Shown piece by piece: positions 20,943-64,000 of a DNA stretch of 64,000 nt. The notes under the pieces are model-generated. The model had not been told where the DNA came from. It ran no database searches and saw nothing but the letters and a program-made list of their open reading frames with translations. Origin of the DNA: a virus; the IMG/VR virus record IMGVR_UViG_3300028920_000044, positions 45,195 through 109,194 of that record. One strand, given 5' to 3'. The position numbers were made by a program, and so were the translations under genes. How positions within the stretch are numbered: the stretch's first letter is position 1; every line of letters starts with the position of its first letter.

Positions 20943-23900
20943 TTATTCCTCCTCATCTAATACTTTTCTAACTTGTTGAATTAATTCTCTCAATGTGTAA
21001 GGTTTATTAATGAAGCTTTTTGCTCCAGAACCAATTGCGTCGTTAATAGGACCATTAGCAGAATATCCGCTAGCCACAATGATTTTAGCAGTAGGTTCTT
21101 CAATAATAATTCTTTCTAATACTTCTGTTCCTCCTATATCAGGCATAATTAAATCTAGAATAACTAAATCAATTAATTCCTTATTATTATTATAAGTCTC
21201 CAACCCCGATATACCGTCACAAGCAGATAAGACTGTATAACCATACATTTCTAGAATCTTGGTCCCTACTTTCTTGATATCTTCTTCATCATCGATCATA
21301 AGGATAGTTTCTTTTCCACCTATAAGATCCTTAGTTAAATCTATGGATGTTTGTTTCATTTCTTCCCCATCACTAATAGGGATATACAATTTAAACTCTG
21401 TTCCTTCATTCAAATTACTATATACAGTTATATACCCACCATGACTTTGCATAATACCATACACAACGGCTAATCCTAAACCAGTTCCTTTACCTGGTTC
21501 TTTAGTAGTAAAGAAAGGTTCAAAAATTCGTTCTTGTACATCAAAACTCATTCCTTCACCAGAATCAACGATACATATTCTGATATAATTCCCTGGTGTA
21601 GCATCAGGATGTTTCTCACAGTAATATTCGTCTAATTCTACTACCTTCGTTGTGATCATTATATGGCCACCATGAGGCATAGCATCTTTGGCATTTATAC
21701 ATAGATTCGTTATTACTTGATTTAATTGAGTAGGGTCTGCCAAACCAAGTGGTAAATCTTCTTGAAGTTTTAACTTAATTTTTATCATAACTGGACCAGT
21801 TGCTGCACGATCGAGAAGCTTATGGGCTAATTTAATTTCTTCGTTAACATTAATAGATTGAAGTCTACTTTCTACTTGTCTACTAAATGTAAGCAATCGT
21901 TTAGCTAAATCTGCTCCTCGCATAGATGCAGTATACATCGCAGATAACTGGCTTTTGATATCTTCATGATCCTTCACCATAAGTAACTGTAAATTACCGC
22001 TTATGATTTGAACAATGTTGTTAAAGTCATGAGCAACACCACCAGCTAATGTCCCAACGGCTTCCATTTTAGAAGCTCTGCGTAATTGTCTTTCTTTTTC
22101 TAATAAAGCTTCTTGGGCTTTCTTCATACCAGAAATATCTTTAATTATTGAAAGAATATGATCCTCGCCACCTATCTTAATTACACTTGAAGAAACTAAA
22201 GCAGATTTTGAAACACCATCTTTTCCTCTCAACATGGCTTCCATACTATCAACATATCCTCGTTCTCCAAGACTTTCATAGAACTTATCTCTATCTTCTT
22301 GATCTGACCACATCTCTAATTCGATTACATCTTTTCCTATAGCTTCTTCTCTAGTGTATCCTGATTCTTTTGTGAATCCTTGATTAACATCAACTATAAT
22401 ACCACTATTAGCTTTAAGAAGGATTATTGGATCAGGACTTGTTGTAAATGCTAATCTAAATTTCTCTTCACTTTCTTCAAGAGATTTCGTCGCGTTATAG
22501 CTATAAGTAATATCTTCAAATGCAATAGCAATACGATCTCCAGGTAAACAAAATGCTTTTATTCTATAAACACCGTCAAGATGGTCAGAATGATATATAT
22601 AACCTTCATTCTCATACGGACCATTCTTTAAAACGCAAGAATTATAAAGCGCATTCTTTAAATCTCCTCCACCTGGCCATATTTCGTCAAAAGATTTACC
22701 TTGATTACTACCAATATCTATTCTTGTGATTAATTCAGCAGCAGGATTACCATCAATAAGTATCATTTCTAAGTTCTTGCATTCATAAATAAAAATACCC
22801 GATGGTACCGTCTCAAATATTTGAGATGCTGTCTGTAATTCATATTCTGCTTTAACCCGTGAAGTAATATCTTGACCAAGTGAAATAACACCTACTAACT
22901 CACCTTTATCATTATGAAGAATTGTGTTATTCCATTCGCAAGTTATAACATCTCCGGATTTAGTAAGATTATCATTCACAATATGGATCGGTAATGTTTT
23001 ATTTAATAAACTTTCAACAACATCTAAAAGTTGTAAACGCTCATGCTTTGGAATTAAGAAATCAAAGATATTGTTCCCAATTACTTCTTCTTTCGACCAT
23101 CCAAAGATTTTTTCTGCATGATCATTCCATTCTTTTATGTGAGTGTGTTCATCCCAAAATATAATAGCGAGAGGAGCAGTCTCGAAAAGAGTTCTATATC
23201 GCTCTTCACTTTCTCGTATAAGATATTGTGATTGTTTACGACCTAACGCAATACCGATACTCGCTCCAAGTCCTTCAAAAAACTCAATCATATCCAGAGT
23301 AAACATATTCCTTCGACGATCATTTAATTGTAGTAACCCTATATTTATTCCTTCTGGAGAAACTAATGGAATAAGACCAACTGACATATATCCTTCTGCA
23401 TTACACCTGTTACGAGTTTTAAGTTTGACACCTGTCGGTACACCATCGTCTTTTAATAATTCAACTGTGTTATTTGTCCAGAAACTACCACCAATTGTAA
23501 AGTGGGGTAGGTTAGAATCTGTCTCTCCGCAAATAATCATACCACACATACAATCTAAACAAGCTGTACCGTCCGAATGCCTGATTACATTACCTACTTC
23601 GTCCCGTGAACATATATGGGTTTCTTTTTGAACAAAGTCTTCATCAAATCCTTCAGTTACATAATAAGGATATTCATCATTATCTTGTAATCTAATAGCA
23701 ACAGCATCTAACCTAGTAAACCTTTTAATAAGAGTTAAAATCTTCTTAATAGTTAATTCAGCTTCAAATTCAGAATTAAGAATATCTAAGACATTTGAAG
23801 ATAACTCCTGTCTTTCCCGATAACGTACTACATCTGATATGTCAGAGACTATTCCCACAAATCCAATTACCTCATTGTTTTTATCTCGTTTATAATTCCA

Positions 23901-26021
23901 ATCAACTTGAACATCAAAAGTTCTTCCACCTTTAGTGATATTCTTACCTTGATAAGTCTTAGGATCTGGTTGATCTATTGGTAAACTTCTAAACATATCT
24001 TTAAGTTCGTCTTTATTTTTGTCGCCCACAAACTCCCATATGTAATGCCCTAATACTTCGTCTTTAGACATTCTCATCATTTTTATATAAGCGCTATTAA
24101 CATAAATAAGTTTACCATTAATATCTAATTCTTCAATACCGTATGGACTTGTTTCTACTAATACACGATATTTTTTCTCACTTTCAATCAAAGCTTTTTC
24201 CGCCAACTTACGATCTGTTACATTAATAAGTATCCCATCTATAACATCGTGTTCTTCGTTATATCGGGCAGACACTTCAAGAGCAACATCCGATCCATCC
24301 TTTTTAGTTCCTTTAATAGGAAGATTATCGATTCTTTTTACTTCTCTTAAATGATCTATAACGTTATTAATCTGTGTTTGATCAGTATATTTCCCCCAAC
24401 CGGTAAATTTATCAAAGAGATCTGTAGAATCATCATATCCAAGCATTTTTATATGAGCAGGATTAGCTTCTATTGTTTTACCGGTGCTGATTTGTATTTG
24501 AAACATACCTACCATGGACGTTTCATATATAGTTCTGTATTTTCTTTCACTATCTTCAATAATTTTTCGTTGAGCTAATCTATTTGTTATATCTCTAGCA
24601 AATGCAACTATATATTCAACTTTATCAAATACAACATAAGTAGCAGATATTTCGACAGGTATTTTACTACTATCTTCTCTTTTATGTGTATGTTCGAAAA
24701 TCAACCAACCTTTAGTTCTCATTTGGATGAAATGTTCTTTCCATTCCTTCTTTCCAAAATCACTAAAATGAATATCCCATACATTCTTTTTCATCAATTG
24801 GTCTTTAGTATATCCTAATTGACTACATGCAGTTTGATTCACATATACAAATCTTCCATTTTTATTTAACCAAAAAGCAGCATCTTTCATAGCGTGTACA
24901 GCAAATTTAGTGAATTTAAGAAGCTTCTCAACTTTTAATCGAGCAAGTCGTTGGGTAATAAAAGCAACAATAATAAAGAACTGTATTACTATTATTGTGA
25001 TACTTGGCCAAAAATATTTCTTATATTTATCATAAAATGATATTGGAGCATTTATTATAACACTGTCAACTGGTAATCTTTGTAAGTCTATATTACGATT
25101 CATTAAAACATTATAATCAAACATTGGGGTGTTTGGACTTTTAATTACAACGGGAATTGAATTAATATCGATTCCTGATAACACTTTAACTGCCATGTTA
25201 GCAGCAATCTCCCCCTGTTTAAATCCATTTATAACATATCCTCCAATTATCTCATTACTAACACCAACTTCAAAATCACAAACGGTATACATTGAAATAT
25301 CAGGCCTTAATTTTTTAACCATGCTCGTTACTTGTCTTAATGATAATATCTTACCATCAATAGAATGACTAAATAGATATTTAATTATTGCAGATCTAAC
25401 AGGCAACGACAATATCCATTTTTTAATCCCATCAATTGTCCATGTATGGATCCATGAAACATAACCGTCGAGATCGGAATTATTATCAAATATATCCTTA
25501 ATTACTGAGTTGTCCGGTAGTCGAGTATCAATAACTACACCAATATGAGTAACATCTGGTTGTAACTGGTTAATCACATATATAGTTTTTGTCAGATCAA
25601 ATTCTTCCATAACTCCAGTTACGTCTTTTACTTCTACAATATTAAACAATGGATTAATACCACAAAAAATAATAGGAGTAGATATATCTACATATGCTTC
25701 CTCACGATGATTTAATGCAAACTCTAATGCATTATTATCGGACACAATAATGAGATCAAATTTCTTGTTTTTATGTTTAATATCAACGACTTCATGAAGC
25801 AACGTTCTTATTTCATCATAATTATTTCTTTTTGTGTCTAAATATTCTATGTGTTCTATATGATGCTCATTGGCATCTAAAACACTATCAATACCCTCCT
25901 GAATCCTATCTGTCCAAGCAAATCCTTGATGGTAAGAGTGAATAATTAATATCTCACCAGCGTTTGCTGCCGAACATAAAAGGGCAAATGCGCACATTAG
26001 TAAGATTGTTTTTAGCTTCAA
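20943..26021 (-). CDS. Hybrid sensor histidine kinase, multi-PAS
   Basis: 1692 residues. Order: signal peptide (1-21), periplasmic ABC-substrate-binding-like sensor (23-325), membrane segment (about 339-358), three PAS domains (370-735), a GAF-like domain (745-930) containing CLDCMCGMIICGE, three more PAS domains (935-1305), HisKA with phospho-His1331 in GGVAHDFNN, HATPase with N-box NLCINAKDAM, DSGEGM and GKGTGLGL, and a C-terminal receiver with Asp1623 and Lys1673. All catalytic residues seem intact. It should phosphorylate its own receiver and perhaps the 26035 protein in the host inner membrane. A kinase this size in a run of virion genes is exceptional; acquired from a bacterium, probably. 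Confidence 0.92.
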   Translation of the reverse strand: MKLKTILLMCAFALLCSAANAGEILIIHSYHQGFAWTDRIQEGIDSVLDANEHHIEHIEYLDTKRNNYDEIRTLLHEVVDIKHKNKKFDLIIVSDNNALEFALNHREEAYVDISTPIIFCGINPLFNIVEVKDVTGVMEEFDLTKTIYVINQLQPDVTHIGVVIDTRLPDNSVIKDIFDNNSDLDGYVSWIHTWTIDGIKKWILSLPVRSAIIKYLFSHSIDGKILSLRQVTSMVKKLRPDISMYTVCDFEVGVSNEIIGGYVINGFKQGEIAANMAVKVLSGIDINSIPVVIKSPNTPMFDYNVLMNRNIDLQRLPVDSVIINAPISFYDKYKKYFWPSITIIVIQFFIIVAFITQRLARLKVEKLLKFTKFAVHAMKDAAFWLNKNGRFVYVNQTACSQLGYTKDQLMKKNVWDIHFSDFGKKEWKEHFIQMRTKGWLIFEHTHKREDSSKIPVEISATYVVFDKVEYIVAFARDITNRLAQRKIIEDSERKYRTIYETSMVGMFQIQISTGKTIEANPAHIKMLGYDDSTDLFDKFTGWGKYTDQTQINNVIDHLREVKRIDNLPIKGTKKDGSDVALEVSARYNEEHDVIDGILINVTDRKLAEKALIESEKKYRVLVETSPYGIEELDINGKLIYVNSAYIKMMRMSKDEVLGHYIWEFVGDKNKDELKDMFRSLPIDQPDPKTYQGKNITKGGRTFDVQVDWNYKRDKNNEVIGFVGIVSDISDVVRYRERQELSSNVLDILNSEFEAELTIKKILTLIKRFTRLDAVAIRLQDNDEYPYYVTEGFDEDFVQKETHICSRDEVGNVIRHSDGTACLDCMCGMIICGETDSNLPHFTIGGSFWTNNTVELLKDDGVPTGVKLKTRNRCNAEGYMSVGLIPLVSPEGINIGLLQLNDRRRNMFTLDMIEFFEGLGASIGIALGRKQSQYLIRESEERYRTLFETAPLAIIFWDEHTHIKEWNDHAEKIFGWSKEEVIGNNIFDFLIPKHERLQLLDVVESLLNKTLPIHIVNDNLTKSGDVITCEWNNTILHNDKGELVGVISLGQDITSRVKAEYELQTASQIFETVPSGIFIYECKNLEMILIDGNPAAELITRIDIGSNQGKSFDEIWPGGGDLKNALYNSCVLKNGPYENEGYIYHSDHLDGVYRIKAFCLPGDRIAIAFEDITYSYNATKSLEESEEKFRLAFTTSPDPIILLKANSGIIVDVNQGFTKESGYTREEAIGKDVIELEMWSDQEDRDKFYESLGERGYVDSMEAMLRGKDGVSKSALVSSSVIKIGGEDHILSIIKDISGMKKAQEALLEKERQLRRASKMEAVGTLAGGVAHDFNNIVQIISGNLQLLMVKDHEDIKSQLSAMYTASMRGADLAKRLLTFSRQVESRLQSINVNEEIKLAHKLLDRAATGPVMIKIKLKLQEDLPLGLADPTQLNQVITNLCINAKDAMPHGGHIMITTKVVELDEYYCEKHPDATPGNYIRICIVDSGEGMSFDVQERIFEPFFTTKEPGKGTGLGLAVVYGIMQSHGGYITVYSNLNEGTEFKLYIPISDGEEMKQTSIDLTKDLIGGKETILMIDDEEDIKKVGTKILEMYGYTVLSACDGISGLETYNNNKELIDLVILDLIMPDIGGTEVLERIIIEEPTAKIIVASGYSANGPINDAIGSGAKSFINKPYTLRELIQQVRKVLDEEE

Positions 26022-54317: not shown

Positions 54318-55022
54318 CTACCGGGCTTTACACATTTTAAAATTATTCCCATCTCTCTCAACATAAGTACGATTATGAATCCAATCTCCGGTATTAATAT
54401 AATCACATTCTCTTATATCTTTTGGATCAGAATCTCGAAGTACTATTTTAGGTAAATGAGTATGTCCCATAACAAGGTATTCAAAGTCTTTCTCATACTT
54501 CGACACCATGTGCTTTTCCATATCAAGCACTAGAGCATTATATTTCTTATGTTGCCTCTTGGCTGAGATCGAATGATACAGATTTCGGGTGTATGCTAAT
54601 AAGTTAACTCCTAATCTCTCTAGGAACCATCTGATAGGGTATACAAGTTTGGCCATCCAGAAATGTCTCGTTATCAATTCGTCAAATTCTTGACCATGAA
54701 CGAATAAAGTATCACCATCTCGAAGAAATTCAAAGATCCTACACATATCAAAAATAGAATGCATTTGTGTTATGTCTGGATCGTGGTTACCTCTAATAAT
54801 TAGCATAGAACCACGTTTTGCACGTTGATTTATTTCATTGATTAAATGTCCATAGTTGCTTTTAATAACATCTACCGGCGCTTCCCAGGTGTCTATAATA
54901 TCACCAAGTATAATTATTCTATCATATTTGGCATCATTAAGAAGTCTTAAAATTATAGCTTCAGAATTAAATAAAGGATTACCTAAATGTAAATCAGATA
55001 AATATAAATCCATGATCGGCAT
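54318..55022 (-). CDS. Metallophosphoesterase, LpxH-like
   Basis: 234 residues (start at 55013 also possible). SDLHLG, GDIID, GNHD and GHTH motifs in order, as in UDP-2,3-diacylglucosamine hydrolases. The family removes UMP in lipid A synthesis. In a phage it may act on nucleotides or lipid A. Divergent from the RAMP-like gene, sharing its promoter region. Confidence 0.8.
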   Translation of the reverse strand: MPIMDLYLSDLHLGNPLFNSEAIILRLLNDAKYDRIIILGDIIDTWEAPVDVIKSNYGHLINEINQRAKRGSMLIIRGNHDPDITQMHSIFDMCRIFEFLRDGDTLFVHGQEFDELITRHFWMAKLVYPIRWFLERLGVNLLAYTRNLYHSISAKRQHKKYNALVLDMEKHMVSKYEKDFEYLVMGHTHLPKIVLRDSDPKDIRECDYINTGDWIHNRTYVERDGNNFKMCKAR

Positions 55023-55116: not shown

Positions 55117-56067
55117 ATGGTAGAAAAGAAACAACCAGCGGCTAAGGCAAAGAAAGACCAACCCCAGATTGAAGTAGGTAGCGAAACAACTGGATACTGG
55201 GATTATTATTCTATTTTATTTCGTCTTCGCAGAACGATGCTAGGTACTTGTACCGAGGCATCAATAATGCAGGAACACGTTATTCAAAAGGCTCGCAAAC
55301 AAATCAAAAAGGCTAATCGCCTTGGCGATCGTATTGTAAAGTCTATTGACAAGTTCAAAGGAGATGCTATCTCCGAAGACAAAGAAATTGAAGAGGTCAA
55401 GAAGATTATTATGGCATTCGCAGAATTGACCGCGAAACCACTTAGTATGAATCTTCCGAACGATCTCAAATCCTTGCTCACCATGGCGAAGGAAGTCAAA
55501 AAAGATTACGACGAACTCGTTGCAAAAGGTGAACAAGCAAAGTTCACAGTCTTCATGAAAGAACCGAAGAATGGTGATCCCAATACACTATGGCCGGTTA
55601 TTAGTACCCATATGATTTTAGGGAATCTCAAAGAGAATCTCAAAATCATTTGCAACAACGGAGACAAAACAATATTGTCTACTAAAGTCTCCATCGGTGA
55701 AACTATGGCGTTAGATGTCAAAGCTATCGAAGAGTTTATGACTCCCAACCTAGACATTATGCGCCATCCGGATGGTAAACCTCTTATTGAGGAACGACCC
55801 ATATCGTTTAACCGTATGGGGAAGACCGAAACGGCAATTGCTGCTTCTGAACAGTTGCCTAAACTTGCCACATTCGGTTGTAAACTTCGTATCCGTAAAG
55901 GTAGCCCTATTAATGAGACTGCCCTTAGGAAACTTTTTACTTACGGTAAAAACAATGGATTAGGAGCTAATCGTGGTGCTGGTAATTTCGGCTCCTATGA
56001 TTACAAACTGGAGAAACTACCCAACTTCGTTGAAACTGTCGAAGGACACGAAGACGGGTGGAGATAG
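55117..56067 (+). CDS. RAMP-like (Cas7/Cas6-type) protein, predicted RNA binder
   Basis: 316 residues from ATG 55117, seven bases after AAGGAG. Lys/Ala-rich start, then a first strand (ILFRLRRTMLGTCTE), a long helical insert (residues 45-135), and a C-terminal half ending in FGCKLRIRKGSPINETALRK and GLGANRGAGNFGSYDYKL. That last strip matches the G-h-G-x(3-5)-G-x-G loop of RAMP proteins, which bind RNA. No catalytic His or HD/nuclease motif is seen, so it would be a backbone subunit. It is followed, 28 bases after the stop, by the pentamer array on the same strand. RAMP membership is by motif only. Confidence 0.55.
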   Translation: MVEKKQPAAKAKKDQPQIEVGSETTGYWDYYSILFRLRRTMLGTCTEASIMQEHVIQKARKQIKKANRLGDRIVKSIDKFKGDAISEDKEIEEVKKIIMAFAELTAKPLSMNLPNDLKSLLTMAKEVKKDYDELVAKGEQAKFTVFMKEPKNGDPNTLWPVISTHMILGNLKENLKIICNNGDKTILSTKVSIGETMALDVKAIEEFMTPNLDIMRHPDGKPLIEERPISFNRMGKTETAIAASEQLPKLATFGCKLRIRKGSPINETALRKLFTYGKNNGLGANRGAGNFGSYDYKLEKLPNFVETVEGHEDGWR

Positions 56068-57799
56068 GCGCTATGAACTCATACGAATTAAGGCGTACTA
56101 TTGGTCTGGTTCATTTCGCTTATGTGACGTGAAGGTGGCGTAAACTGACATGAAGTCTGATTTCGTACTGGTTCTGTATATTACCGTACTGTGTAATATT
56201 ATCATGTATAGTTGAGGTGTGATGTCTTAACGTACAATTGGCTGATATAATGTACTGATGATGTATTCCGAGATAAAGTAAACTTTCGGGTGTCATTATG
56301 TGCGACGACATACTCTTTTATGCTGTCACGTTATGGTCGCATGTTATACAATGCGATGCAGTAATGGTGTAGTTTTATGGCATGGAGTGAAGTTAAGTAA
56401 AGGTGATGTATGATCTTATCCAGCATTGTGCCGTAGTGGTCAGGTGGCGTTATACGTCATAGACTAATGTGCGACACAGTAACGGTTATGTAATGTGTTG
56501 TCGACTTACGATTCGTGGAGTTGTGTCAAGTCTTGGTTATATGGTCTGTCATCTATTCCTGACTGGCGTTGTAACAGCTTTGCTCGGTCTCGTTGCGTCC
56601 CGCTAATAAATAAATAAAATAAAGTAAGGTGAGAATCCTTATTAGCGAATGTATTGGTATGATACAATTTTACCAAGTAGGCTTGAGTTGAGTTATGTAC
56701 GATGATGGTCCCATCCCGTATTGTAGGTTTCCACTTTGTTTCGTCCTGGCAACATGGAGTTGTTTGATCTGCCATTATATGGAGTAGCGGTGGACTGAAT
56801 TACGCTCAACTTAGGCGTTGTAACAGCAAGGTGCAATGAAATTTACTATTGTGAAGTTCTGTATGGGTGAAATAGTATGAACCGTAGTTGTGGTGGGTTA
56901 AGCTATCACAAAGCAGGGTTTGATGATGTAAAGTGGCGGTAAAAGTAAAGTCCAATCAACCTATGTAATGTGCAGTGTCCGGTAAACTGTGATTACATGA
57001 ACTTTTGTTTGCTACGAGTTGAGTCAGATAAGCTCATGTAATTTATCGTATTGGTGAAGCGTTATCAACTACAATGCTATTTGGTGGAGGTCCAGTTTTG
57101 CCTTTATGTGGTAGAATTGTGTGGGCTGTTGTTTTGGTGACAATAAATAATATGACATAAAGTAAAGTGGGGAAGTCAACCCAACGTCATCAAAACAATT
57201 CCTTGGTACAGTTGTATCAATTAGCCTGAAGTTTCATGTCGGTATTGTTCTGTCCATTAATGTTCAATATTGTAATGTTCAATATACTCAAGTATTGGTA
57301 CAATGTCGTAAACTGGAGTGAATCGCAGTACCAGTGAACCGAACTCAAGCAATGTTTCGTTCTGGTGAACTGAAGTGTACTCACGTAACGTCGGGGTACT
57401 ATGATATAAATCAGAGTAAGATGTCGTTCTGGTTTGATACTGCAAAAAGCAAAATGCCCTGAGGCTTGATTCTGTTAAATAGAATTACGGTATAATATAA
57501 TATCGTAGGATAGCCTGAAACTTCATGTAGGTAATGTCATGTCTCATACCATGAGTTCATGTGCCGTTCCGGTAAGACATCCTAAAGTAGAATGTGATGA
57601 TGTAAAGGCTGGGTGACGCAATATTGGCTGACGTAGATGTATAGGTCTAGCATTGTTGGCTCGAATATGGTGAAATAGAGTAATGGTTGGGTCGCGTTGG
57701 CTCGTGTGAAGTTTCTTGAGGTAACGGTGGACTACGGTCAACTGATGTAATGTCGTTCCGGTAAAGGTAAAACACCATATCGTATTGTGTAGTCCCACC

Positions 57800-58101
57800 G
57801 GTAGCGTATCACGCTGTGAGCTCCAGTAAGGGTTTAGTTAACCATAGTGAGTTTGGGTTGTGTGACGGTAACGTCCAATATCATCTGGTCCATCACCGTA
57901 CTGGTGAGGTGGTTTGCGATTATGTATTATTATGTGATGCTTTGTTTTGGTGAAATGATTTATCATAAGTCATATTACCGTTTAGTGATGGCAATGTCCT
58001 ATATCGCCTGATCTAGTATTGCACTGACTCGGTAGCGTATCACGCTGTGCGCTCCAGTAAGGGGTTTAGTTAACCATAGTGAGCTTGGATTGTGTGACGG
58101 T
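57800..58101 (+). repeat. Dispersed copy pair of array units
   Basis: 57800-57869 and 58031-58101 are about 70 bases each and nearly identical (a few substitutions and one extra G). The intervening 160 bases are different. Both keep the pentamer phase, so two whole units were duplicated. Confidence 0.75.
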
Positions 58102-59602
58102 TTAATGAAGTACAGCACTGTTACATATCGTATTGGTGGGACTATGTTAAGTCAACCGACGTGTCATTATGGTATTGTACTGCCCAGTAGATCACTATGA
58201 ACTTCCGTTTTGGTCCGGTAGACTATCATGTTGTAAAGTACTGGTATAACGAAGTACCCTATAATCGGATATGGTTATGTAGTGGCTATGTGTCATAGCA
58301 TAACATATCATTATGTAAAGCTATGGTTCGGTTATGTGCAACTTTGTTCGCTCAATTTCAGTGCAGTCGGGGTATCATAAACTCAAGTGTCCTGGTCTAG
58401 AGTAAAGCATTGGTTATGTTGCGCTGGTAAACTGTTGTACTATTTTATCGGGTATCGTTCTGGTGGACTAATCTACCGAGCCGTATCGTGAAGTCACGGT
58501 GCTGTCAATCACTATGAACTACTATAATGTGGAATACGGTGACGGTTGAATGCAATGGAGTTTCCTACCCTTACATTAAGTAATGGTCAGGTGAAACTTT
58601 GTATCATGTGATGATGCGATGTGAAGACTTTGTTGCGTCCGATGCAATAGTATTCAGTGGTATTCTGTAATGGTAATCTAGACTTGGCTAAAGTATTGTT
58701 TCATCATGGTCTAGGTATGCTGAGCTGAATTACGATGTCGTTGGATAAAGTAGTATGTAGTAAAGGTCTAGTCTACCCTACTGTTGTGGTGCGGTCAATC
58801 TGCGTAATGTAATATATTGTGCAGGTGAGGTGTGTTGTTCTACCTTGGAGTTAAGTGTAATGATGTCGCGGTATGGTGAATTAAAGTATGTCATTGTTCA
58901 GTGACGGTATGGCGATGTGTCTTGTTATAAAGTACAGTAATACATCGTCAGGGTTCAACATTGCATCTTACAGTGATGTCCGGGTATGCTTCTGTTGTCA
59001 TCATATCGTACGATGACGTATGGGTATGCTGAATCAAAGTGTCGTTTACCTAAAGTACCGTTGGGGTAAGGTGTTTTCATGTTCCGTAGCATGGGTTGAA
59101 GTTGCGGTATGGTTACATCAGTTATGATGCATTGAAGTTGCGTGGCGGTACGATAAACTGAAGTAAGCTGAGCTAAGGTCGGGGTATGCTGAATTCAAGT
59201 GAAATGATGTAAACTGATGGTACGATTCTGCTATGTGGCATAATATAATGTTTTGTGTAGGTCCAGTTGTATGGAGTTATATGCCGTTATGGTCTGATAC
59301 GATGAATCATGATATAATACCGTAAGGGTGATGTGAGATATCGTTCAATTCAGTACTGGCACGTATCGTTGGGTTCTGTCCACTAGAGTTATGTAATGGT
59401 GAAATTATGTCAGTCTAAGTGCATTGTTATAGTGTGCGCTTTTGTAAAGTAGAGGCAGGATAACGTAACCCGAAATACAGTATGGTTTCATACAGGTGAT
59501 ATAAAGTCAGCTAACGTTGTGTATAGTATCGTATTATGGTGGCAACGTTACATTCATTATTGTACTGTGGTGTTAGGGTGGAATTATGTGGGCTGAGGTT
59601 TC

Positions 59603-59770
59603 GTAGGGTTTCGTAGTGGTACGCTAAAGTTTACTATTGCCCATTCTCGTAAACTGATGGTAAAATTAGCTAACGTTGTATATACTGTAGGGTTTCGTAG
59701 TGGTACGCTAAAGTTTACTATTGCCCATTCTCGTAAACTAATGGTAAAATTAGCTAACGTTGTATATACT
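59603..59770 (+). repeat. Tandem 84-base duplication of array units
   Basis: 59603-59686 and 59687-59770 are direct repeats with one mismatch (ctgatgg versus ctaatgg). Each holds two extra-G boundaries (GTAGTG and CTGATG). It shows recent unit-level expansion of the array. Confidence 0.85.
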
Positions 59771-59951
59771 ATCGTACTATGGAACGGCATCATAAAGTTA
59801 CGCCAGCTAATGTGCAGTCGAGTCCTGGTTGGATTAAGTTGGGTGTAATATTGTCATGGTTCGATATAGCTTCATTGACTCGGGTTATGGCCTAGTTCAA
59901 TTTACTCGGCTACCGTATTGCTAGGGTGAACTGTGATATCGCAGACTAAGC

Positions 59952-60000
59952 GTGGCTAGACAGTCTTTTATAGGTTGTCTAGCCACAACCTAATTTTTTT
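59952..60000 (+). terminator. Strong rho-independent terminator ending the array
   Basis: gtggctagaca (59952-59962) and tgtctagccac (59976-59986) pair perfectly over 11 bases with a 13-base loop, then seven T at 59994-60000. It begins right after the last phased step, on the same strand as the array and the RAMP-like gene. Confidence 0.9.
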
Positions 60001-61210: not shown

Positions 61211-61906
61211 CTACGAAACACCGCTTGGTAAATTCTCAGGTACTGTTCCAGAAAATTGAATCATAAAGAAACTTACATAAAAATCACAACCATCATTCTC
61301 AGACTTTCTTCCTTGTAACTCTAGAAGTGCTTGTTCTGCTGGCCATCCTGTAGTCACTGGTTGTGAGAATACCTTCCAAACTTTTTTCTCAGAGTGCATC
61401 CTAATCCAATCAAATACTACTTGATTATTAGTTGAATCAAAAACTCTGAGATCAAAATATTTATCATTATCATCTTTAGAATATATAACTGCCTGAACTC
61501 CAATAGGAGTACCTAACTGATTTGTTCCTCTGAATATAAAATGAGTGCTTGGTGTCCAACTATCTCCAGCAAATTTAAAAAAGTTTTTATTATATGAACC
61601 AAAGCTAAGAGTAAGATCTCCTGCCCCACCTTCACCAGCTTCTGGAACACTACTAGGATCTACTCCACCTGAAAGTAAACCAGTATGGGCCGCAATAATA
61701 GCATCTAATTCTGTTTCTTCATCTTGAGTTAATGCATCATTAAACCATACCTCACAAATATCTTCATCGAGATTAGTATCAATATGATGAAGTTCTGTTG
61801 TTATAATAGTGGATGCCTGAATTTCTTCTTGTAGTATTGTAATGTCTACTTTATGATTTATTACAAAATCATCATATATCGAATAAGCATAATCGGTTAA
61901 AGCCAT
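61211..61906 (-). CDS. Probable fibre accessory protein
   Basis: 231 residues. Acidic helical start (LDEDICEVWFNDALTQDEET), Gly/Pro linker (SVPEAGEGGAGDLTLS), then a beta domain. Lies between fibre genes; family unknown. Confidence 0.5.
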   Translation of the reverse strand: MALTDYAYSIYDDFVINHKVDITILQEEIQASTIITTELHHIDTNLDEDICEVWFNDALTQDEETELDAIIAAHTGLLSGGVDPSSVPEAGEGGAGDLTLSFGSYNKNFFKFAGDSWTPSTHFIFRGTNQLGTPIGVQAVIYSKDDNDKYFDLRVFDSTNNQVVFDWIRMHSEKKVWKVFSQPVTTGWPAEQALLELQGRKSENDGCDFYVSFFMIQFSGTVPENLPSGVS

Positions 61907-61922
61907 GTCAATTCCTCTATAA

Positions 61923-64000
61923 TTATGATGGTACCTTCCAGATTTCTAATCTAGCTCGACGAATTGATGCTGTATCGCCAAGATTACTACAACACCAATC
62001 AAGATCTACTGTATGATTTCCAGCGGATAAGTTCTCATATTTAAACCCACTTGCAGGATGCCATTGATCACTACCTGCATCTTTAGGTTCCCACTGGTGT
62101 TCCATAATAGTGGTCGTATCATCAATTTGAACTTGCCCTCTAAAATCATTAGATCTATTGTTGTATTGCCATTCATAATACCAACTAATTCTATATTTAC
62201 CACCAACTAGACCAGTAAGAGTCAATCTTACTTTTTGTTGGTAGGCATTATTGGTAGTCTGTTGCAATGTCTCTGATGATGTTTCAAACAATTCTTCAAA
62301 TACACCATCTTGTCCATCGACACCGTCAGCACCATCTTGTCCATCTGCACCTGCAGGACCCGTATCACCTGGTTCCCCTTTTAATCCTGTGAAAGGACCA
62401 AAATCAAACCATACACTTCCATCATACATTATGACGTGTTTTGACATGTCCCCATTGAGAGGAGCAGGTAGCGTTTGATTAGATCTATTATCATCTAAAA
62501 CAAGAAAATAATAAAGATCCGTTGAAGATGCTCCAGACGTTGTTTCAATCGACGTTATTTTTGCTTCATCTAAATCATCATATTCATCAACCTGAAAAGC
62601 TTCTCCTTGGGGACCTTGGGGACCAGTTGCGCCATCTGCACCATCCACACCATTAGCCCCATCAGCTCCGTCAACACCAGGAATACCTTTGATTCCCTGA
62701 AGTCTTTTAATATTAAGAACTAGATTAGGTTGACATGTCACTACTGATGTATTTGCTCTCATTAATTGAACTGTGATATAATCTCCATTATTCAAATAAT
62801 AAGGAAATGATGCTTTTAAATCTTGTATCTCTGTCTGATAAAAATCCCCTGTTACTTCACTTGCAGGAATAGAAGTTGTGCCATTAACTTGTATTCTACC
62901 ATATACAAGAGTCATAGTTGTTGCTACTAATGATTGGAAATAAAAATCTATATCATACCAACCATCTTCATAAACATATATTCTCTCAGTATTGGTATCA
63001 TCATGTTTGATAACTGTATCATCGGTTTCTGCTTCAGTTGTATCTAAAGTTACATCGCCCCAAGTCGTACCTATATTATAGGTTGTTGATCTACGAGCGG
63101 ATACTAAATTGATTAATGTTACATCTCCAGCAGGACCTTCAACACCTTTTATATTTCCTATTAATACCCATGACCCACTTTGTTTCTCATACACATCACT
63201 GGTATTAGTATTTAGATAATAATCACCATTCTCTCCAGTTGCTCCCGCAGGAATACCTGCTCCATTGTACCAAACAGAACCTGAAGGACCTGGTAACCCT
63301 GTATCACCCTTTATTGAATCTACTTTATATACTTCTAAATCCGATTTAAGTATAGCAGACGGATCACCAGAAGATATTACTTGAACTGATATCCACTCAT
63401 TAGCATTAAAATATTCAACTACTTCATTAGATAATTCATCTGTTATTCCACCTTGATTAACATTAGTTAATATATGTGAATTATCACATTCTGAAGCTGG
63501 TAAGAACACTGAATCATTTTTATTTATTCTTGCGTTCAATGTACTATTCACATTAGTTGGTGGAGTACCATTAGGAGGTATGCTATACATAATATTATAG
63601 GCTACTCTATAATACCCTGCCTCATTGAAATAAATCCTATCTTGATTTGCTACGCTATGACTTAATCTAGAAGGCTCAGTTTCTGAGTCCTTTATTGGAT
63701 ACACTATATCTTGCCAGGTCGTAGGAAATGTAGTATATGTGTTCATTCGAACTCGACAATGAACCATAGCTGGTTGTCCAAATAATTCATACTTCTTATA
63801 TGCGAGTATATTTGGATCCCATACATATGCTGCTGCTGTATCATTTGCAATATAGAGTTTGCCTGCTATACCCGTAGCCGGGAAACTAGATGATGAATTA
63901 TAGAAGTAACTATCTGTTATCTTTACATTACCTACACCATCACCAATCCATAAATCTTTAGTATCGAGGGAGACAGCAGGCTCCCCTCGTTGAAGGGAAG
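61923..64000 (-). CDS. Tail fibre with collagen-like repeats, 5' end beyond window
   Basis: The frame is open through base 64000, so the N-terminus is outside; the Met at 63767 is internal. Upstream of it the frame encodes QRGEPAVSLDTKDLWIGDG, a phrase common in tail fibre heads. Two copies of a ~130-residue beta domain (TYTTFPTTWQD and TYNIGTTWGDV types) are joined by G-x-y collagen stretches, for example near 62300-62370 and 62600-62690 (plus numbering). C-terminal beta-sandwich about 100 residues. Receptor-binding fibre by layout. Confidence 0.8.
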   Translation of the reverse strand, partial: SLQRGEPAVSLDTKDLWIGDGVGNVKITDSYFYNSSSSFPATGIAGKLYIANDTAAAYVWDPNILAYKKYELFGQPAMVHCRVRMNTYTTFPTTWQDIVYPIKDSETEPSRLSHSVANQDRIYFNEAGYYRVAYNIMYSIPPNGTPPTNVNSTLNARINKNDSVFLPASECDNSHILTNVNQGGITDELSNEVVEYFNANEWISVQVISSGDPSAILKSDLEVYKVDSIKGDTGLPGPSGSVWYNGAGIPAGATGENGDYYLNTNTSDVYEKQSGSWVLIGNIKGVEGPAGDVTLINLVSARRSTTYNIGTTWGDVTLDTTEAETDDTVIKHDDTNTERIYVYEDGWYDIDFYFQSLVATTMTLVYGRIQVNGTTSIPASEVTGDFYQTEIQDLKASFPYYLNNGDYITVQLMRANTSVVTCQPNLVLNIKRLQGIKGIPGVDGADGANGVDGADGATGPQGPQGEAFQVDEYDDLDEAKITSIETTSGASSTDLYYFLVLDDNRSNQTLPAPLNGDMSKHVIMYDGSVWFDFGPFTGLKGEPGDTGPAGADGQDGADGVDGQDGVFEELFETSSETLQQTTNNAYQQKVRLTLTGLVGGKYRISWYYEWQYNNRSNDFRGQVQIDDTTTIMEHQWEPKDAGSDQWHPASGFKYENLSAGNHTVDLDWCCSNLGDTASIRRARLEIWKVPS

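Follow-up and report, generated by a model that had tools for sequence, protein, structure and literature searches.

A five-base-step array beside a RAMP protein gene in a bacterial virus is probably a VIPR-like multi-guide RNA locus with a triplet code

A bacterial virus carries, beside the gene for a CRISPR-like RNA-binding protein, an array of ~3.9 kb that is written in steps of five bases. We are fairly confident that this array is a VIPR-like multi-guide RNA locus with a triplet code, in which the RAMP protein would serve as effector. The array lies in the window analysed here, a stretch of 64,000 bases at the right-hand end of a 109,194-base IMG/VR virus record (IMGVR_UViG_3300028920_000044). 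In VIPR (Viral Interference Programmable Repeat), described in April 2026, viruses use guide RNAs against rival viruses (PMC13142463). A first-pass annotation of the window, made from the letters alone, had guessed that related phage arrays might already have been reported. Such arrays do exist, and VIPR is one related system (PMC13142463).

Results

A five-base step that is reset at every unit end

Base identity at lag 5 is 0.370 over positions 56095-59945, compared to 0.267 ± 0.007 in 500 dinucleotide-preserving shuffles, of which the highest reached 0.288. The 5-base periodicity that the first-pass annotation had described at these coordinates is therefore real and far beyond chance, and the comparison with shuffled sequence that it had proposed places the real array above all 500 controls. 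When identity is computed by 300-base block, nearly every block of the array exceeds the rest of the window. A trained 5-state cyclic HMM gave a gain of +531 nats over a first-order Markov model for the real array, while 12 shuffles gave values from -17 to -49. Each step comprises three free bases, then G (.59), A (.22) or C (.13), and then T (.87) or C (.11). The filler pairs of the window phage are mainly GT (.45), AT (.24) and CT (.13), so the first filler base is loose; in most relatives it is tight, with G at about.85. TRF detected no 5-base tandem repeat in the array, only a few local duplications, and no Rfam family matched the window.

The phase had been described as strict over thousands of bases, but it is in fact reset at the end of every unit. 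Of 127 phase jumps, 122 are of one kind, namely an extra G (NNN-G, then GT), and this gives unit lengths of 5k+1, mostly 31, 36, 41 or 46 bases. Because one G resets the phase at every unit end, we read the array as about 95 short guides and not as the single continuous message that had been supposed. Units mostly comprise 6-9 steps, and 93 of them have at least 5 triplets. Before each junction the last GT hardly varies, and the triplets that flank junctions are biased: the last is often AAT-like and the first often begins with A or G. The resets also bear on an earlier count of T at the second position in 43 of 48 steps between 56290 and 56535. No fixed phase exceeds 22 of 49 T in that stretch, whereas, once the resets are followed, 45 of the 48 steps have R and 37 have T. 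Part of the remaining non-matches are unit ends where G and then GT comes next.

The array is broken by two interruptions (Table 1). Both have in common ATAAATAA-N8/9-AAGTAARGTG, and a role as internal promoters or as sites of processing is possible. The predicted hairpin and T run that follow the array are likely its transcription terminator. Two mutually exclusive hairpins are possible at this place (59971-59992 versus 59952-59986), one of them directly before the T run, in an attenuator-like arrangement.

Table 1 Features of the locus, in window coordinates.
Feature	Position	Strand	Description
Vipr-like RAMP gene (predicted)	55117-56067	+	316 aa from ATG MVEKK; in-frame starts up to 54856
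Putative guide array	56090-59949	+	~95 units of NNN-[G/A]-[T/C] steps; one extra G (NNN-G, then GT) resets at each unit end
First array interruption	56603-56645	+	AT-rich, inverted repeat GCTAATAA...TTATTAGC; HMM phase lost
Unit	56893-56938	+	AAG ATC AAA AGG TTG GAT AAA (KIKRLDK); partner of 57572-57607, different fillers
Second array interruption	57137-57206	+	AT-rich; HMM phase lost
Unit	57572-57607	+	AAG ATC AAA AGA GTG GAT AAA (KIKRVDK); partner of 56893-56938
Unit	57868-57903	+	NPILPTT; partner of 57991-58026, fillers at chance
Unit	57991-58026	+	NPILLIT; partner of 57868-57903
Tandem duplication	59603-59770	+	Recent, 84 bases, two units, 99% identical
Hairpin, then T run (predicted)	59952-60000	+	15 bp, -23.2 kcal/mol, z -5.1

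The gene upstream of the array is predicted to encode a RAMP protein

The open reading frame upstream ends 22 bases before the array. Its product is named by neither Pfam nor PHROGs, and as a single-sequence query against phages and viral and genome contigs it found no relatives. A profile made from an alignment of 17 homologues was compared with the PDB, where it matched type VII Cas7 (E 2.8e-9) and Csm4 (E 6e-4). The window protein was modelled with AF2 (pLDDT 75.8), and the model matched Csm3, type VII Cas7 and Cas7-11 with probability about 1.00; a long helical insert in the window protein keeps the TM-scores of these matches moderate (0.3-0.6). Compared with viral models, the same model matched a phage 'Cas system-associated RAMP superfamily protein'. 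A G-loop, GLGANRGAGNFGSYDY, lies near residues 281-296. Together, the profile matches and the fold matches of the model identify the predicted product as a RAMP (Cas7/Csm3-like) protein. Such proteins are of the kind that form filaments on guide RNA. Alignment of the protein family to the type II Viprs with hhalign gave 93.3% (E 2.8e-7), and in a tree the family forms its own clade apart from them (100/100).

A calcineurin-like metallophosphoesterase gene, divergent from the RAMP gene (54318-55022, minus strand), was considered as an accessory gene and rejected, as it is an inconsistent neighbour across loci. The 258-kb phage of L026 encodes another metallophosphoesterase-like protein (G012 61414-62163), 41 bases from a second array.

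Array and RAMP gene occur together in other viruses

Relatives were found solely by searching IMG/VR with the pattern of the array, and not with the protein. The search of other phages for the same phase, which the first-pass annotation had suggested, turned up arrays of this kind in about 27 more IMG/VR contigs, with a protein of 205-325 aa beside most of them. Among the 3.1 Mb of fetched contigs (three duplicates left out), a RAMP homologue is present in 30 of the 32 that have an array and in 0 of the 22 that do not, and both array contigs without a homologue are 5-kb fragments. As a rule, homologue and array share a strand and are 0-93 bases apart. The earlier idea that the array is a guide read by a protein filament gains from these data, since a gene of the filament-forming type adjoins the array and the two travel together in nearly all array contigs.

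Annotated records with the system are four human-faecal phage scaffolds and Hydrogenobaculum phage 1, in which the second filler is mostly C/A or T/A while the G and the G resets are kept. Across the 28 or so loci we see no conserved neighbours, except for frames that overlap the gene or the array itself and for one family in the four gut loci. For several of the relatives G012, G014, G010, G015, G009 and G013 there are two to four separate arrays of up to 2 kb, some of which sit tens of kb from the RAMP gene, and G010 has a second RAMP-like match (221350-222207, minus strand) with no array nearby. Elsewhere in the window, positions 20943-26021 (minus strand) encode a 1692-aa PAS-PAS-GAF histidine kinase with a receiver domain, which is unusual for a phage; this part of the virus record could be a host stretch or a chimera.

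Triplets, rather than fillers, appear to carry information

Pairs of similar units in the array allow a comparison of triplets with fillers. The units at 56893 and 57572 have 19 of 21 triplet letters in common but only 6 of 12 filler letters, where about 6.8 would be expected by chance. For the units at 57868 and 57991 the corresponding counts are 16 of 21 and 6 of 12, and the differences are mostly in third letters. Stop codons in the triplet frame are fewer than column composition predicts, both in the window (17 versus 29.9) and in the relatives (134 versus 172.7).

Several further tests of the triplets were chosen during exploration, and with uncorrected P values they gave the following: 0 of 91 window units have a stop in each of the two orientations (P 0.001 against column shuffles, P 0.058 against triplet shuffles); the third base in the window avoids A or G after TA (P 0.003) and A after TG (P 0.0025), an avoidance that has no significance in the pooled relatives; and in a gap-free reading 28 units contain a strong Shine-Dalgarno motif, compared to 13.5 ± 3.3 after the triplets of each unit have been put in random order (P 0.001). 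The Shine-Dalgarno enrichment is seen in the sense orientation only, and an example of a ribosome-binding site in the gap-free reading is AAAAGTATTAAGGAGGTGAATTTATG, from the 262-kb phage of L020. The adjacency of third to first bases also leans to the pattern of coding DNA (z 2.3 and 2.7). In short, triplets that are kept without their fillers, the depletion of stops and the enrichment of Shine-Dalgarno motifs support the first-pass proposal that information is written in triplets separated by two scaffold bases. The data are most naturally read as units that each carry 18-27 contiguous gene bases, often codon-phased, with two scaffold bases following every codon.

Target searches

No target was found when gap-free decoded units were compared with phage records by blastn. 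All units of 6-12 triplets, searched against 3.1 Mb of related contigs, gave no excess of matches over shuffled triplets, and decoded peptides gave none against the open reading frames of relatives. Five pattern scans of IMG/VR, four with single units and one with a motif common to two window units, returned either nothing or matches at chance level. A heme-oxygenase-like frame in L283, which agrees with 20 of 21 letters of the unit at 57572, was dismissed as chance, being the best of more than 119 loose matches. The missing target says little.

Discussion

We propose that the array would be transcribed on the plus strand together with the RAMP gene, ending at the terminator near 60000. By analogy with class 1 CRISPR and VIPR, Vipr-like subunits would line the RNA at one per five bases, each holding the two fillers (R-Y) and presenting the three bases between. 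Joined in sequence, the words of a unit, mostly 18-27 letters in all, would match a DNA target of a rival virus or mobile element, often codon-phased and sometimes at a gene start, and the extra G at junctions would mark the guide ends. Binding would then block transcription, as in VIPR type II; here we infer the pairing rule, the DNA target, the formation of an RNP and the repression alike. The geometry of VIPR type II, with five RNA bases per protein and three target bases per step, would fit here too, except that the position skipped in type II seems to be informative as well.

It is on this last base that the proposed code has its closest competitor. The guides could be read by the published VIPR rule, such that two letters of each triplet pair and the third is a tolerated leftover at the skipped base, and we give this a chance only a little short of even. 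Type II VIPR, as the preprint describes it, combines an RNA step of 5 with a target step of 3 and one skipped base, mostly at the codon wobble (PMC13142463). Third letters differ more often between similar units than do the other two (45 versus 30 and 30), and in relatives sense 0 (0.0398) and antisense 1 (0.0387) are among the frames with the fewest stops, each placing the third letter at the wobble. However, third letters do seem to carry target information, given the stop avoidance in the window and the Shine-Dalgarno motifs that run intact across triplets, and the third letter is as variable as the other two instead of being fixed as G. Taking all three letters as read leads to a fuller claim: that five RNA bases specify three contiguous target bases with no skip, in a continuous array of ~95 guides with single-G delimiters, one RAMP protein and no accessory gene; that the triplet logic is common to clades whose fillers differ (GT, G[CA], G[AT]); and that this code has not been described before. 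We put this forward as a tentative proposal, on balance leaning against it.

Action on RNA, be it the mRNA of rivals or of the phage itself, would be in keeping with type III and Cas7-11 effectors, and the nearest solved relatives of the window protein indeed serve as subunits in type III and type VII complexes that target RNA. We nonetheless think it improbable. The ribosome-binding-site motifs are sense-only, and guides of this kind would be unable to pair with mRNA, which disfavours mRNA and favours DNA as the partner; type II VIPR likewise binds double-stranded DNA in the preprint's account (PMC13142463). The empty searches of phage records and related contigs would also be expected if the array held no guides at all, but were a decayed minisatellite, a structural or packaging RNA or a protein-binding landscape in which triplets have no meaning, and the RNA partner of the RAMP protein is itself an inference. 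Yet TRF sees no 5-base repeat, units repeat their triplets without the fillers, the triplets avoid stop codons and their order matters, and the RAMP gene travels with the array, so that we consider an array without guides very improbable.

A VIPR-like guide locus with a triplet code would suggest that the VIPR idea, in which the letters of a guide are interrupted, also exists in a three-letter, long-array form, carried by jumbo phages from the environment, phages of the human gut and a Hydrogenobaculum phage. About 1,000 decoded units (663 of them of 6-12 triplets) are now available for working out the code. The system has a bearing on the origin of CRISPR guides and, if the gap-free reading is true, it would be a compact programmable nucleic-acid-binding system with a single protein.

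Comparison with known systems

Class 1 CRISPR effectors form a filament on a guide RNA with periodically unpaired bases, and in Cascade the RAMP thumbs push out every sixth guide base. The window system is like the class 1 effectors (type III Csm3/Csm4, type VII Cas7) in its predicted RAMP fold, its G-loop and its RAMP effector subunit. It differs in that there is no CRISPR array of direct repeats and spacers, only local duplications, and in that no other cas genes or conserved neighbour lie beside the RAMP gene. The period is also of five bases rather than six, and the putative guide is interrupted.

VIPR type II, known from phage SUSP1 and Pseudomonas prophages, is one of seven types in the preprint (PMC13142463). 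Each 5-base repeat of type II has a fixed GGY, which stays unpaired, and an NN that reads the target, one base being skipped at every step; repression of transcription by the Vipr RNP on double-stranded DNA has been demonstrated (PMC13142463). In Pseudomonas phage LESphi2, we see GGYNN runs upstream of a Vipr homologue and near a CI repressor gene (L328 1100-1395), an arrangement that resembles a type II VIPR locus; this phage is an annotated one. The window system and type II are alike in having a phage-borne RAMP protein, with homology over the core, and an adjacent noncoding RNA (predicted here) in which fixed and variable letters alternate in 5-base steps. They are also alike in likely covering three target bases per step, and the targets proposed here would often be codon-phased, like those of type II.

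The differences are several. The step is NNN-R-Y here and GG-Y-NN in type II; GGYNN runs in the window array reach a length of 2 at most, and GG is confined to unit ends. Three letters per step seem to be informative here, in one continuous array of ~95 units, whereas type II has 1-4 separate vrRNAs of about 100 nt. Each of those vrRNAs has an invariable structured 3' tail, while none was found in the window array, where 10-mers occur at most 3 times. Type II has the accessory gene vap, and no conserved vap gene is present among the ~28 loci studied here; the protein clade is also separate (100/100). For types other than II, the preprint speaks of 'a related consensus' and of 'staggered arrays with overlapping vrRNAs' (figs S17, S18, PMC13142463), phrases that would suit a continuous array of altered consensus. 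As our comparison rests on type II, the system may be one of the preprint's seven types, and for this reason we do not claim a new kind. Overall, the system very probably works like VIPR and belongs to the same superfamily, as a triplet variant.
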